From: Halicephalobus mephisto
Taxonomy: Eukaryota > Nematoda > Chromadorea > Rhabditida > Panagrolaimidae
Length of the DNA: 64,000 nucleotides
Direction: 5' to 3'
Assembly: GCA_009193035.1 (NCBI GenBank)
Contig: SWDT01000001.1
Span: 930,001 to 994,000 of the forward strand
Shown: positions 22,522-33,898 of the stretch, in pieces
Position numbering within the stretch: the first letter of the stretch is position 1
Layout: each line of letters begins with the position of its first letter
The notes under the pieces: generated by a model
Database searches by the model: none
What the model was told of the DNA's origin: nothing
Seen by the model: the letters and a program-made list of their open reading frames with translations, nothing else
Made by a program: the position numbers and the translations under genes

Positions 22522-25505
22522 ATGTGGCTGGAATTTTTATTTTCATTGTTGATAGTTAGACCTATTCTTGGTCAAGCTAATGGATATGCAGCCTATGCTG
22601 GAGGATCGAATAACGATGGAATAAATTCCGAAGCTGCCATTGCTCCTATAGCCCCTATGGCTCCTCCCCGAGTCCCTCTCCCATCAGACGGGGTCAGTTC
22701 TTCATCTGGATCTTCTCTCGGTTACCGTCCTCCCCCACCACCTCTCAGAAGAAACGTCCAAAGCATCGGGCAATGCTCCTTCGGTGAGTTTTTACTTTTC
22801 AATAAACCTTAAAAATACAATGAATGCGGGTAGTAGCAAAACTAATGTAACAGCATACGAACTAGGTCCTGCCACGATAATCCCTGAAAGGTACGGTAGA
22901 AGCGCGTTCGTTGTTCTTTGATAATTGAAGTTGTTGTTAAGATTGTTTGCTTCGGAATTTGATATATCATTTTGGACTGAAGAAGCCCAATAAGTGGACT
23001 CCTTCGATACCCTGACCGGTACTACAATAATAACGTTTATTTCTAGCGAGGACTATATGCTAGACAAGATAGCAGAGATAAACAACTGCATCTGAAGCTG
23101 ATATAATAATTTTGGGTCTTTTTTATATCCTACTATGGATAATTAACTATTGAGGACGAACAACCCCTAAGGCTAGGTAGTAATGCTGTTCTTTCGGACC
23201 CACGATTTTCGTTTGATTTTTAAAAATCGAATGACTTAAGTGAATGCATAATCCCTCCGATTTTTTTCACCGTTCGGTAAATTCATCAAGTGCTGAGTCT
23301 AAGACTATTTCCGGAGAGAAAATAAGTAATTAATGTCTTATTAGGTCAGTTCAATCTGACTCAAGGGCGCGTTATTCTTATATTTGGATACTTTTTTAAG
23401 AGTATCCTGTTTGTTCAAATTTTAAATGATCAATACACAAAATTATAAGTATTTGCGTAGGAATATTGTATTGACCTTGATTCACCGGTTTTTTAGACTC
23501 TTCAAAATGGCAAGTCGAACCTCAGTCGGCTATCGCTCACGCCATTATGTTCGATAGAACCACCGGATTGAGTTGCGAAGAATGTCTCAATAAGTGTGCA
23601 GAATTTCAAGATCCGAGCAGTCAATGGATTTGCAGAACTCTAACTTATGATCATCGTTGGAAGATTTGCGATCTTTTTGCCGTCAATGGGACTGAAAGAC
23701 CGTTTTTCTTGGCTCATTATCACGGAAGGGATTACTTTGTTTATTTGGCTGCTCTTCCTCCTACTGATGCTCAAATTGTTGGAGATAATGCAAATGGAGC
23801 TAGTGGAAATTCTATTGGTTCAGGTTCTGGAGCTTCTTCAGCGACTCCTGCTCCTTCTGGAATCGCTCCTCCAACTGAATCCACTCTTGCCCCACCCGCT
23901 CCGGCTCCAGCTGCTCCTTCAGCTGAATCCACTCCCGCCCCACCCGCTCCAGCTCCAGCTGCTCCAGGTCCAGCCGCCAGTTCTGGATCCTCCAACATCG
24001 TCGGAGAAGAGACACTCAACAGTGAGGTTTCAATTGCTGCAAGTTCCTCCTCCTCCTCCTCCTCTTCCTCCTCTTCTTCTTCTAGTTACAGTTCCTCTTC
24101 AGCCAGTGCCTCTTCCAACTCGGTTCCAGCTTCCAAAGAAGTAAAGGCTTCTGCTCAGTCAGCTGAATATCTTGTAAGTTTTCCTGTAAACATGTAGTTG
24201 TAAATTTATTAATCTTCTAGGCCGTCCATCGTAATAATGTTCCGAAATCCGGACATAGCACCTGTGGGCGTGGTGAGGTTACTCGTTATTTGCAGTTTGA
24301 ATCTTCGGAACGTTCTAATCCTGGGGAAGAAGTCGGATTCTCCCCAGCTAAGACTCGAGAGGAATGTGCTGTTGCTTGTGACAAAGAAGAAATTTTCTCT
24401 TGGTAAATTTTCGTGTTTAATTTTTGTTGAAAATAATTTTTTTACAGTTCCTCTGCCGTGTATTCCCCAGCAGGATGTGAATTATCAGTTTCCGCTGCAA
24501 ATCATTCAGAATCAGATGCTCTTCGAACTTCTAGCACAGCTGTTTATCTTGAAAAATCCTGTTTACCCAAAAACCTGGCTAAAGGTAATTTTAGTTTATT
24601 TTTAATAATTACTTATAAAACCACTAAGGTACTCGTACTATTTTCCCCGCTGTTAAGAACTTTGTCATGGTTGGTCACGTACAGGAAGTTGCTGACGCTA
24701 ACACACTTGCGGAGTGTCAAGCCGCTTGTTTGAGAGCAGAAAAGGATTATGGTTTTATCTGCAAATCCGCCATGTGGTACCCGAGCGATGCTACCCAAAA
24801 CTGCCTGCTCAATTCGCAAAGCCACACTACCAGACCGGAAGTTTTCACCAATGAGGACCAAGGTGTGAATATGGTTTACTTTGAAATTGTGTATGAAAAT
24901 TCCGAATTGAAGAATAATGGGTTGAACAATAGATTCCGGGTAGGTCAATTATAAGATATTATATATGGATGTATATGGATATATAATATATATATATATA
25001 TATGCACATATGCACGTATGTACGTATGTACGTATGCATGTATATATATATCTATATACTTATATACTTGTATACTTGTATAAGTATATACATAGATATA
25101 CATGTATGTATATGTTAATAAGGATTATACTTTTTAGGATAGCCCGATTTCTAATGCTCCAAAAGCTAAGTGGACAAGATGGTCCAAGTGTAAGGACTTG
25201 AGTGGAATGCGTTATCGTTATATGAAGTGTACTGACAAGAAGGACATCCGTAAATGCCCCAAGGAATCCGTCATGTGTCGACACTGTAAGTAATTTTTAT
25301 TTAAAAAGTAGTAAAAAGGAAATGGAGGAGATTAAGAATCCTTTATTATTGAATTTTGTTTTTAGTGCCTGCTATTCAAATCCAGAAGCTGACTAGTGAA
25401 TGTCGGGCTGTTCTTGATTCCCAAGGCCGAAAGCGTTGTCCACATGGAATCCGTACCACCAAATCCGGTCGTAAAGAATATTGTGCAAATCCTGTTGATT
25501 GTTAG
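22522..25505 (+). CDS. Secreted PAN/Apple-domain protein with C-terminal TSP1-like part
   Basis: Seven exons (22522-22783, 23497-24173, 24221-24402, 24448-24584, 24629-24939, 25138-25285, 25366-25505) encode 618 aa. A signal peptide ([17 protein letters not shown]) is followed by a Gly/Pro/Ser-rich stretch and three cysteine-rich PAN/Apple-type modules: about 85-165 ([12 protein letters not shown]...ICRTLTYD), 315-420 ([19 protein letters not shown]) and 425-520 ([22 protein letters not shown]). Between the first and second lies a 130-residue linker of Ala/Pro repeats and a long serine run. The C-terminal 95 residues hold [20 protein letters not shown], like a thrombospondin type 1 repeat, and a last CPHGIR segment. 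It is probably a cuticle or extracellular matrix protein; PAN modules bind proteins or sugars. Intron 1 (713 bp) contains one inverted family D repeat. Confidence 0.87.
22857..22925 (-). repeat. Family D short dispersed repeat in intron 1 of the PAN gene
   Basis: On the minus strand it reads CAAAGAACAACGAACGCGCT followed by TCTACCGTACCTTTCAGG and a TCGTGGCAGGACC tail. Related copies are at 28960-29040, 29125-29180, 54905-54970 and 58140-58225. Confidence 0.6.
24966..25110. repeat. TA/TGTA microsatellite in intron 5 of the PAN gene
   Basis: Runs of TATA, GCACATA and TACGTATG words with no other content. Confidence 0.8.
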
Positions 25506-26375: not shown

Positions 26376-27378
26376 TTATTCTTTCGGAATATTATTTTCC
26401 TGTTTGAAGGCCCCCAATGGTGGAACAAGCAATGTATTTCCGGTGACTGCAGCAATGGCGGCAGCAACAGAAGCTTGGCTACCGTTTCTTGGGGTTGATG
26501 ACGTAGTTATTAACGTGTTTGCAGTTGACACATTTTGTCGGTAAAGTTCCTTGAGTGATTGTGTCATTTGTTTTTTCCATTTTGTTCTAAAATTGCAAAT
26601 AATCGTTATTTTTTGAATTGATACAACTATGACGAAATAGGATAAGACATAGTAACTTGTAATTTTCTGAAATGCTGGGGGTATTTGACGCGTTTTAGCT
26701 TTAGTTAATAATTACCTACATAATGCTTATTAAAGCGACAAAGGTTTGGATTAAGCCACTTTGGCAAATGCGATGATGAAAATTGTTATTTTACGTGTAA
26801 AACTTGCCTTCTGTTTTGGAACCAAGTCTTAATCTGGGTCTCGGTTAGCTGGAGGGTCTCCGAGAGGTGGACCCTCTTCTGTACACTCAGGTACTTGTCA
26901 TCCTGGAATTGAATTTCATATTTTTCACGATCTCTACAGTACCTTGAATTCCTTTTCTAGAGTCTCTAACTGGGCAGCAGAATAGGCTTGTCGAGGCTTC
27001 CTTTCAAAAATGGTTTTTCTTGAACGTTTATATTCGTGTTTTCTTGCTATAAATAAAATTATAAACCAAAAAAATCAAATTCATAAACCTCCAAATCCAA
27101 AAAGCATTTGAAGCTCCACCAAGGAAGGCTGTTTGATGTCGTTTGCGATGGCGTAGAGGGGGTTCAGGGCGACTGCTGACTGGATTAACGGGGTGATTGA
27201 AGACAAATCTGAGGGAGAATTATTCTCAGATTCCGTTTGTCTACTGTAATTACTACAGTCATCTAGAATACTGTAGGATGAATAAAGTCCAAAAAAAACA
27301 AGTTTTCCACTTACCAGAGAAGACAATGTCCTCTTGGTCTTCTTTTTTATACAAAATCGAATTTATGTTGAAAGCCAT
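26376..27378 (-). CDS. ANTP-class homeobox transcription factor (NK/BarH-like)
   Basis: Five exons (27378-27315, 27208-27089, 27046-26943, 26902-26808, 26586-26376) encode 197 aa. The N-terminus has FNINSIL, a good eh1 (Groucho-binding) motif as in NK-type factors. The homeodomain runs from about residue 73 to 132 with KPRQAYSAAQLETLEKEF, KYLSVQKRVHLSETL and the recognition helix TETQIKTWFQNRRTKWKK; Gln50 and Asn51 are present. The KYLSVQ and RTKWK parts resemble BarH and NK-1, while TWF instead of TWY argues against a strict BarH. The intron that splits the QNRR codons uses a GC donor (AG|GCAAGT). It should be a nuclear repressor of transcription. It lies head-to-head with the neurotrophin-like gene, with 223 bp between the start codons. 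Confidence 0.88.
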
Positions 27379-27601
27379 CAAGACCTATGAGCAATAATCC
27401 GTCGTTCCTGCTTTTATACCAATCCATCTTTGTTTCTTTCTCATCCATTAGTCTATCGGGGTTTATTTTTCCTATTTATTCTTCTCAAAGAGAACCATTC
27501 CAATTTCAGGTAAGCCGAACAAGCGTGAGAAACAAACTAACGGTTAACCCGAGTTACCCAATAATATTTTTATTTTTGTTTGCCGTAAAGACTTGGACAA
27601 G

Positions 27602-28180
27602 ATGAGAAGGACCTCGAATGCCTTCTGTAACGTTGTTTCCATGGTGGTAATTCTCGTCAGTATCGGCTTTCAAGAAGGGGTTTCTGGAAAAAGTTTAGTA
27701 CTGGTAAGGGAGTTTTTAGTACAGTAATCTCAAAGACATGGAATCCTCGTGAAAGCATATTTTGAGAAAACTAAAATTATTATTTTCTTAGAAAAATAAT
27801 ATTTCTTAATTTGTAGGAAGGACGTAAAGTGGATGCATGTGATCAAGTCGCGACTTGGGAGCAGATTACTCACGCTGAATGTAAGTAGACATTACTGTAA
27901 TCGTTTAATCTCCGTGATTCTAGCCATTGATGGTTCAATAGTTGAATTAGCTCAGCACGAAGAAAGTGGACCTCAGGTTTTCTACTCGGTCAGATGTAAA
28001 GCCGAGTTTTATCCTTGTAGAGGGATCGAGGCCGGGATTAGGTCCCGTTGCGAGACCAGGTTCAACCCCACCGCAGCCATCGTCGTCGATGAAAACGCTC
28101 CAAACGGAATGAAGTGGGATGTCGTCCTCATTCCCGGCCAGTGTGCCTGTGCCGAATTCGTCAACACTACGATCTCTTAA
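27602..28180 (+). CDS. Secreted cystine-knot protein with neurotrophin-like pattern
   Basis: Three exons (27602-27703, 27817-27880, 27924-28180) encode 140 aa. A signal peptide covers about residues 1-29 (VVSMVVILVSIGF). The mature part has exactly six cysteines in the neurotrophin order: ACDQVATW (compare VCDSVSVW of NGF), then an I-D-G-S-I-V segment, SVRC, YPCRGIE, SRCET, and the closing GQCAC. CRGI, the C-x-T after cysteine 4, the Trp followed by DVVLIP, and the final CxC match the hallmarks of NGF/BDNF-type domains; the spacing is close too. No furin-type propeptide is seen, unlike vertebrate neurotrophins. By homology it would be a dimeric extracellular ligand. A Spaetzle-like cystine knot is the alternative, but CRGI favours the neurotrophin side. 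The start is the first ATG; the splice phases close. Confidence 0.8.
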
Positions 28181-28350
28181 GCAACAAATCCTCGAATAAG
28201 TAATTTTATCCTATTTCATCAGACAGTTACATCAGTGTGAATAAAAGCAAATTGTTATTTGTAAGAAACCTATTGTTTAATAAATTCCAATAGTCAAGCC
28301 AACAACTGAAAAAATTAAATTTTAAAGTTGAATAATCTTGTTCTGCAATC

Positions 28351-28677
28351 AAAAAAGCGTAACTTTCGGTTTTTTAATAATTGCGAAATGTGACACAATC
28401 GTCATATTCTCTGTGAACATTTTACATTTGTAACAGAAATTGTAACGAAATAGTGACGAAAATTAAGGAATGATAGTGACGAAAATTAAGGAATGATAGT
28501 GACGAAAATTAAAAAATAATAGTGATGAAAATTAAAGAATGATAGTGATGAAAATTAAAAAATGATAGTGACGAAAATTAAGGAATGATAGTGACGAAAA
28601 TTAAAAATAGTGACGAAAATTAAAAAATAATAGTGACAATTTGCATTTGTTACTGTGCAGAAAGTTACGCTTTTTTT
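28351..28677. repeat. Family C MITE-like element with internal minisatellite
   Basis: Terminal inverted repeats AAAAAAGCGTAACTTTC and GAAAGTTACGCTTTTTT flank about 290 bp. The interior is an array of a ~26-bp unit (ATAGTGACGAAAATTAAGGA). The second copy at 52587-52884 has longer, 33-bp ends and the same internal unit. Confidence 0.8.
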
Positions 28678-32022: not shown

Positions 32023-33898
32023 TCAAGAGAGACGAACCGCATTCATACGGCCATTTAGGTTAGTCATGTCGATGAGATCCGCATAATCAGGTCTGTTTGA
32101 ACTCTGACCGACTGGCAATCGTAATATTTCTTTTCCTTTAGCCGTAATTGGGGCAGTCTAAAATGTCAAATAAAGTGACATTAAACTGGAAAAATTTCAG
32201 ATCACAAAAATAACACTTACTTCATGGTACAAAACCAAATCATAGAGTGATTTGTGAACAACTTGATTAGTTCCAAGAAACTGGTAGCCTTCAGGAATAA
32301 CTTCAACTAGAAAATGCTTGCTTTTTCCAGATCCAATGACATAGGATATTGTATATCCCCAGATCTTCTCCGAAACACGAACAAGAAAAGCACCTTGCGG
32401 CTTATCAGAGAGCAAATCTTCAGCTTCACTGCGAGAAATTATACCTGAAAGAAAAACATGCTTTAGTAAAAAGCAAAATCTCACAAACCATGAAACCAAC
32501 GAGCAGGAAGATTCGTCTTTGGATCAAAACCAGTTCCTTTCGGCATTTCGACGTTGATATACCATTGAACAATAGCTTCGCGATTAACAGGACGGGGAGG
32601 ACGAGCTTGTCTTATGGCTTCTTTCAGAGAAGTCGCTTTGCCTTGATTAAGAACCGGCAATAGAGCATCTGAAGTCCTCAAGTTCTTCTGGTACATCATC
32701 CGTGCCTTCTGAGCAAGCATCCGAATCTCTGCTTCAGCCTCTCGAGACTTTTTTTCGCGTTCTTCGAATTCTTTACGACGTTTTTCTTCTTCGAGTTCAG
32801 CTTCCTTCTTCCGACGTTGTCGTTCTTCCATCAACTGCTCGAATATCTCCGATTGGCGTTTTTCAATATCTTCTTCCAGAGGCTTAATAGGAACACGGAA
32901 CTTGACCGGTTTAACCTGAGTAGTAGTTTCTGCATTGCCATTAACTGTAGATTCATTTGGGACACTTTCTTGTACTGGCTTGACAGGCAACGCATTCGTT
33001 TCCTCGACTGTCGGGAAAGGTACAGGACCCGTTCGGTTTGAAGGATATGTAGTAGATTCACGTCCTGGTATGTAGGATTTCACAGTTTGACCAAACTCCT
33101 CCTTGGGTTTCTTTTGAAGAAACGGCGGACGAGTAGGAATAGGTGGAGGAGTAAGTTTCTTCCCGTTAGATAAGTAATCAGGAGCTGAGTTGCCATTGGG
33201 GAAACTTTTCTTGGGAGTCTGAGACTGATTTTGCGACGAGAAATAATTCACCGGTTGCTGTACAGAGTTGACAAAAGACGTTTGAGCAGTATTTTTCTCC
33301 GGGAAGGATACACTTGGCTGCTGAAAAGAATCCAATAATCGATAATTTCTAAGAAATCCTACCAGATTCGTCAGGAAATCCCGAGTCGTTTCTCTGTCAT
33401 TCTCAGGAATGTCCAGAAACTGCATTTCAGAGAGTTGTTTTTTCAAAAATTGCTCATTCATACTGTCATCGCCCATGGAATCATCCAGTTCGGTTAGAGG
33501 CGGATGCTCAAATTCTCTGGCTCTTCGGGCTTCATTTTCAGCAAGTTCTCGAGCTCGACGTTGGTTTTCTTCCTCGATTATCTGTTCAATCGATGGATCA
33601 TCCGGATGTTCACCCATAACCCAAACCCAGACTTCACTATCACGACCAGTAAGCCACTGAATGCCTCTTTTGGCTCTCTTCGGCTTTGGGTTTCTTCTTT
33701 CTTCCTCCTCCGCTCGGGCTTCGTTCATTTCCCACCGTCGTACCTGTTCTTCTCTCATTTTTATGAATAAAGTCTGCTTCTGTTCTTCGTCAAGTTGTTC
33801 AAGCAGCTCAGGCTCGACATACATCTGGAACAAATCGTTTCATATATCGAAATCTCTAGGAAACTTACCTTGTCGAGAATATCCTGAAGCAAACTCAT
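32023..33898 (-). CDS. SH2D4: SH2 domain-containing protein 4 (SH2D4A/B) homologue
   Basis: Four exons (33898-33869, 33824-32489, 32444-32221, 32157-32023) encode up to 574 aa. The N-terminal block matches SH2D4A closely: MSLLQDILDKMYVEPELLEQ, EEQKQTLFIKMREEQVRRWE, then EVWVWVMGEHPDD. The middle is a charged coiled-coil and Pro-rich region. An SH2 domain fills about 453-545: ARWFHGIISRSEAEDLL, GAFLVRVSEKIWGYTISY (FLVRVS holds the phosphotyrosine-binding Arg) and KHFLVEV. It is a cytosolic adaptor that binds phosphotyrosine; it has no kinase domain. A 42-bp stretch at about 33320-33362 begins GTAGGA and ends TTTTCAG and is in frame, so it may be a removed intron (560 aa) or retained. Confidence 0.92.

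Follow-up and report, generated by a model that had tools for sequence, protein, structure and literature searches.

The DNA window analysed here comprised 64,000 nucleotides of the deep-subsurface nematode Halicephalobus mephisto (assembly GCA_009193035.1, contig SWDT01000001.1, positions 930,001 to 994,000 of the forward strand), and the gene under study is located at positions 27602-28180 of this window. It is likely, in our judgement, that the gene encodes a secreted protein of 140 residues, the family of which is a neurotrophin by sequence and predicted fold, and that the protein would serve as a dimeric ligand of a Trk-like kinase. The placement in the neurotrophin branch was supported by family-level tests with profiles, folds and diagnostic sites, whereas Pfam scoring of the protein by itself was indecisive.

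The mature cysteines of the protein (Cys42, Cys80, Cys87, Cys98, Cys129 and Cys131) follow the neurotrophin order with C-x-C at the end, as had been proposed in an earlier reading made from the letters without database searches (the sequence-only reading), which described six mature cysteines in NGF/BDNF-type order. These residues were aligned with the six cysteines of NT-3 using the single sequence, and with those of NGF and BDNF via the family profile. An additional cysteine, Cys9, is positioned inside the presumed signal peptide.

Nematode relatives

Eight distinct relatives, six of them named, were obtained in three protein searches:

P0001: Halicephalobus sp. NKZ332
P0002 and P0003: unnamed sequences, JGI and ENA sources
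P0004: Panagrolaimus sp. JU765
P0005: Panagrellus redivivus
P0006: Panagrolaimus davidi
P0007: Plectus sambesii
P0008: Steinernema glaseri

The named relatives span five genera (Halicephalobus, Panagrolaimus, Panagrellus, Steinernema and Plectus), and the suggestion of the sequence-only reading to look for the gene in other nematodes was answered with four genera beyond Halicephalobus. Plectus belongs to the order Plectida; Halicephalobus and Steinernema belong to Tylenchina, as do Panagrolaimus and Panagrellus. P0001 shared 37-66% identity with its counterparts from the other genera, four in number, and 26 columns were invariant across the eight relatives. The UniRef names of P0004, P0005, P0007 and P0008 refer to NGF or a nerve growth factor-related domain and that of P0006 to a Spaetzle domain; automatic annotation of these relatives therefore came before the present analysis. 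No relatives from C. elegans or Trichinella surfaced in the three protein searches, which needed shared five-residue words and by which an absence is not demonstrable.

Profile scores with neurotrophins and Spaetzle

The Pfam score of NGF (PF00243) was higher than that of Spaetzle (PF16077) in P0002, P0003, P0004, P0005, P0007 and P0008, i.e. in six of the eight relatives. The difference was clearest with Plectus P0007, where the scores were 36.9 and 19.1, respectively. The Pfam curated cut-off of 27 bits was passed by NGF in six relatives and by Spaetzle in one (P0006, where both pass).

In the comparison with solved structures, the single sequence resulted in five rows, four of which were neurotrophins, and with profile A1 all seven rows were neurotrophins. 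Profile A4, composed of the eight nematode relatives, gave 20 rows: 18 neurotrophin rows with E values from 2.6e-10 to 3.9e-6 and two rows of Aedes Spaetzle with E near 0.6 (0.59). The best neurotrophin and the best Spaetzle row of A4 were nine orders of magnitude apart in E. The scores of the eight-relative profile with stretches of BDNF, NT-3 and NGF were determined to be 41.1, 39.9 and 39.6 bits, respectively. A chance pattern of cysteines was rejected as the source of these scores, since the best of 100 profiles shuffled by column, in which the six cysteine columns stayed fixed, did not exceed 8.9 bits, compared with 39.6-41.1 bits of the real profile. Spaetzle was rejected as the better label due to its lower profile and fold scores and the differing diagnostic sites.

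Diagnostic residues and predicted fold

According to the available excerpt of Wilson 2009 (PMC2772990), the two families are separated by Pro13 (shared by all Spaetzle), by an aromatic residue (Spaetzle) versus Ile/Val at site 133, and by Trp130 (neurotrophin, lacking in every Spaetzle). The mapping of these site numbers, via NGF in the family-profile alignment, is our own. The motifs of the H. mephisto protein that are relevant to the comparison are as follows:

28016..28027, + strand: CRGI motif at Cys III, residues 87-90, letters identical in NGF, BDNF and NT-3
28115..28117, + strand: Trp120, assigned to the Trp130 site of Wilson 2009; its distance of nine residues to Cys V is also that in NGF
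28142..28150, + strand: Cys V and Cys VI (C129-A-C131), with Gln, not Cys, preceding Cys V

The Trp at CysV-9 was found in all nine nematode sequences (the eight relatives and H. mephisto). Val or Ile occupied CysV-6 (site 133) in each of them, and the Spaetzle-type Phe/Tyr in none. If site 18 is NGF Asp30, site 13 is NGF residue 25, which corresponds to Ile51 (CysI+9) of the H. mephisto protein; Pro at CysI+9 or +10 was present in none of the nine. The residue before Cys V is Gln128 and there is no extra cysteine; GQC-x-C occurred in 9/9 sequences, this string having also been used to locate Cys V. An extra Cys beside Cys V is a feature of some Spaetzle paralogues. The CRGI motif, regarded by the sequence-only reading as a hallmark of true neurotrophins, is present in the H. 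mephisto protein but varies within the family, being CHGI in P0006, CLHM in P0007 and CTGV in P0008.

Fold models were predicted for P0001 and Plectus P0007, not for the 140-residue H. mephisto protein. Neurotrophins ranked well above Spaetzle with both models, and IL-17, gremlin-type and other knots, lower down in the rankings, were rejected. The structure prediction that the earlier reading had recommended thus pointed to the neurotrophin fold in these two relatives, and its preference for neurotrophins over other cystine-knot families was supported by the family profile, the two predicted folds and the three sites of Wilson 2009.

Gene model and splicing

The following elements were assigned to the gene:

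27602..27703, + strand: exon 1 in the spliced reading, start codon and signal-peptide-like hydrophobic stretch (by hydropathy only), residues 1-34
27704..27816, + strand: intron 1, 113 nt, GTAAGG..TTGTAG, phase 0, missing from the P0001 and P0002 proteins
27817..27880, + strand: exon 2, beginning of the knot domain with Cys I (C42, 27838-27840) and Trp48
27881..27923, + strand: intron 2, 43 nt, GTAAGT..TTCTAG, phase 1
27924..28180, + strand: exon 3, Cys II-VI and stop codon TAA at 28178-28180
28240..28245, + strand: AATAAA, possible poly(A) signal by consensus only, 60 nt 3' of the stop

The three exons, joined by script, gave the 140-residue product. The neurotrophin-like gene of three exons at 27602..28180 described by the earlier reading was confirmed in its exact exons, open frame and GT-AG introns. 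Six acceptors were tried for intron 2 and the open frame was kept by three of them; the acceptor of the chosen model is the one backed by P0001 and P0002. P0001, itself a gene prediction, has 140 residues and is 91% identical to the H. mephisto protein with equal length and no gaps. In P0002, all three exons are continuous in one protein of 127 residues from a 1008-base contig. P0003 equals P0002 from IDGS to the end and has 15 added residues where intron 2 would lie, an insert that starts as a translated GT donor would. We infer that the P0003 record is unspliced and that of P0002 spliced.

An in-frame stop was located at 27545, 57 nt upstream of the ATG, and the peak of hydrophobicity was determined at residues 11-23. 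Because of this stop and the hydrophobic stretch, the gene plausibly encodes a complete secreted protein, the secretion of which, judged from hydropathy, would proceed via an N-terminal signal peptide.

A search of the 59.9-Mb assembly with the 140-residue protein matched only its own three exons, and several gene copies in H. mephisto were therefore rejected at the sensitivity of a single-sequence search. The six-frame search of the whole genome with PF00243 gave no match, the gene at 27602-28180 itself included, which indicates that a family search of this type misses genes split in such a manner. The intron within the knot domain distinguishes the H. mephisto gene from vertebrate neurotrophin genes, which are not known to have an intron in that domain.

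Receptor candidates and alternative explanations

The results weighing against a neurotrophin that signals through Trk are gathered in this section; they concern the receptor, the likeness to Spaetzle and the N-terminus of the protein.

With the human TrkA kinase as the query, 140 genome matches were obtained, and 12 candidate places among them were read at length, so that a Trk could have escaped notice. The best matches were two kinases with 42-43% identity, insulin-receptor-like by eye, and no clear Trk was among them. DDR-like (by eye) and ROR-like kinases were also first or among the better matches. One gene on C315 (L050, C315:93500-103400, and L058, - strand) contains a kinase and, by eye, a transmembrane stretch. 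The joined exons of this kinase scored 179.6 bits with TrkB, 176.4 with TrkC, 173 with TrkA and 169.9 with the insulin receptor among solved kinases. The top row, however, was 9p9u_A, labelled EGFR, with 227.7 bits, and a reconstructed Src-Abl ancestor was placed between TrkB and TrkC with 177.9 bits; the Trk margin is therefore small. A control kinase on C113 scored 233.6 bits with ROR2, which is below 9p9u_A (248.5 bits) and 36 bits over the next family. The control thus shows that families are separable in this way, and the Trk assignment on C315 is weak: the kinase may be regarded as a marginally Trk-like candidate. No Pfam family was matched by the extracellular exon upstream of it.

The genome search for LRRCT_2 (PF16920), performed without a positive control, found nothing. 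On C269 (L059, C269:243919-244023, - strand), one TNFR_c6 repeat was detected with 30.4 bits compared with the cut-off of 29.4 bits. Close to the repeat, a frame carries an Asp/Ser-rich stretch together with a transmembrane-like segment, and no death domain was visible there by eye. The check for a Trk/p75-like receptor recommended by the sequence-only reading was thus weakly addressed, with a faint Trk-like candidate and a lone TNFR_c6 repeat on one side and no clear Trk on the other. The missing convincing Trk, the empty PF16920 search and the TNFR_c6 repeat would all suit a protein of neurotrophin fold that acts on a receptor other than Trk or Toll (the TNFR-like product of C269, for instance, or an unrelated one), the Trk link having been lost in the lineage. 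This is unlikely in view of the binding of cystine-knot proteins by C. elegans TRK-1, described in the preview PMC13174251, and of the marginal Trk-likeness of the C315 kinase.

The Pfam scores of the 140-residue protein alone, 23.6 bits (E 6.1e-5) with NGF and 23.8 bits (E 7.2e-5) with Spaetzle, were nearly tied and both below the curated cut-off. In P0001 and P0006, two of the eight relatives, the Spaetzle score was the higher one. The profile search proposed by the earlier reading, for which a higher score with another cystine-knot family would count as refutation, came close to a tie with the single sequence and favoured neurotrophins at the level of the family. Pro126 at CysV-3 was mapped to the dimer-interface Pro136 of all Spaetzle, and Pro occupies this position in eight of the nine sequences; according to the excerpt of PMC2772990, it would be common also to some protostome neurotrophins. 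In Plectus P0007, a Pro at CysI+8 adjoins the Spaetzle Pro site. The position of NGF Asp30 is taken by Ser56 in the profile alignment; Asp30 was treated as typical and not as defining, because some deuterostome neurotrophins have Asn there (PMC2772990, excerpt). In the TIR search, the only match with E no higher than 0.01 was a Toll-receptor-like gene on C199 (L061) with leucine-rich repeats and a transmembrane stretch, so that the 140-residue protein might act as a Toll ligand.

The near tie of the Pfam scores, the higher Spaetzle scores of P0001 and P0006, Pro at CysV-3 and the gene on C199 would suit a Spaetzle-type ligand of the worm's Toll-like receptor, its likeness to neurotrophins deriving from the shared superfamily; Spaetzle and coagulogen have the knot of this superfamily as well. 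We regard this explanation as quite improbable. The neurotrophin Trp and Ile/Val sites in all nine sequences, the missing Pro13 and the Gln in place of an extra Cys before Cys V differ from Spaetzle, the gap of nine orders of magnitude and the fold scores of both models prefer neurotrophins, and Spaetzle homologs were found only in panarthropods according to the available part of PMC7056985, where the strictness of the search is mentioned as something that may account for this. That the gene is a pseudogene or a mis-spliced, non-expressed reading is very improbable with an intact frame, consensus splice sites, a gap-free ortholog of 140 residues in a second species and the conservation of P0001 and its relatives across genera.

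The prodomain is not evident in the H. mephisto protein: only 41 residues precede Cys I and the in-frame stop at 27545 lies upstream, an unrecognised upstream exon being possible. The R-x-K/R-R furin site was not found before the knot, and the sole dibasic pair, RK at 37-38, is near Cys I. The earlier reading had likewise seen no furin-cut propeptide of the vertebrate type. In the 140-residue protein, P0001, P0005 and P0008, the hydrophobic N-terminus, judged by eye for the three relatives, begins 30 to 41 residues from Cys I, and none of the four carries R-x-K/R-R ahead of the knot. The N-termini of P0003, P0004 and P0006 are short; in P0007 the signal peptide is not evident and the model may be incomplete. 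The sequences suggest that the prodomain is lacking in three genera.

Discussion

The preferred reading is a neurotrophin of compact build in which the customary prodomain appears to be lacking; it is unusual both for its phylum and for this apparent lack. The disulfides would be paired I-IV, II-V and III-VI, and the dimer would be non-covalent because the knot would use all mature cysteines. Cys I is about a dozen residues past the presumed signal peptide, so that synthesis would yield the mature form at once, to be released without the cleavage of a prodomain. The dimeric ligand would then probably signal through a Trk-like kinase in the Trk-type manner.

Compared with vertebrate neurotrophins (NGF, BDNF, NT-3, NT-4; PF00243), the identity was 21-28% over the aligned structures. 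The loop between Cys II and Cys III has 6 residues in the nematode protein and 9 in NGF; the Ser in place of NGF Asp30 and the prodomain and furin site that are not evident are further differences. The diagnostic sites of protostome neurotrophins (Daphnia, Ixodes, Capitella), compared by description in the excerpt of PMC2772990, are as in the nematodes, but those of Ixodes and Capitella are described there with a signal peptide and a prodomain.

Neurotrophins have been placed at the base of bilaterians (Heger 2020, PMC7535936, available part). The preview of Nawrocka et al. 2026 (PMC13174251) describes C. elegans as having a Trk receptor kinase and no neurotrophin by sequence, and the absence from its genome is also stated in the excerpt of PMC2772990. 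The sequence-only reading had said the same of C. elegans; this holds by sequence but needs updating, as the preview reports that TRK-1 binds cystine-knot proteins, which are proposed to be functional neurotrophins. These partners are also nematode cystine-knot proteins, whereas in the family of the 140-residue protein the neurotrophin homology is visible in sequence. Among the open-licence matches listed, no earlier description of a nematode neurotrophin family was found apart from the 2026 preview, which does not show its absence from print. What appears new is that nematodes have a neurotrophin family which is recognisable by sequence and has been put to the test, automatic NGF labels having existed before for some relatives.

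The occurrence of related genes in four nematode genera beyond Halicephalobus suggests that the neurotrophin signal was retained by roundworms, and C. elegans likely lost the gene or altered it past recognition. For a more complete history we see roughly even chances: a true neurotrophin was inherited by nematodes, its prodomain was dropped, and it was kept in Plectida and Panagrolaimomorpha (Steinernema, a parasite of insects, and the free-living Panagrolaimidae), but was lost or made unrecognisable toward C. elegans, where TRK-1 then used divergent cystine-knot proteins. The presence of the family in five genera argues against a plain absence of the ligand from the phylum and for its having dropped out of sight within nematodes. 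Its members are concrete proteins for testing the ligand-Trk pair in worms that can be cultured, and they probably exemplify a neurotrophin synthesised with no pro-form. If true, a mature-only neurotrophin would be a natural test of the purpose of the proneurotrophin signalling branch.

Neighbourhood of the gene

At 26789-27074 on the - strand, about 530 bases before the start of the neurotrophin gene, frames with WFQNRR, which we take to be a homeobox signature, apparently form two exons. A short tandem repeat with units like gatagtgacgaaaattaaggaat is located 3' of the gene at 28430-28640. Frames at 32200-33839 (- strand) contain an SH2 domain (32200-32523, PF00017, E 1.3e-12) and, at 32484-33839 of the same strand, a long charged stretch with no Pfam match. 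Two PAN-domain frames, with E values of 1e-4 and 5.1e-11, were detected at 23481-24951 (+ strand), the first of which has Ser-rich stretches.
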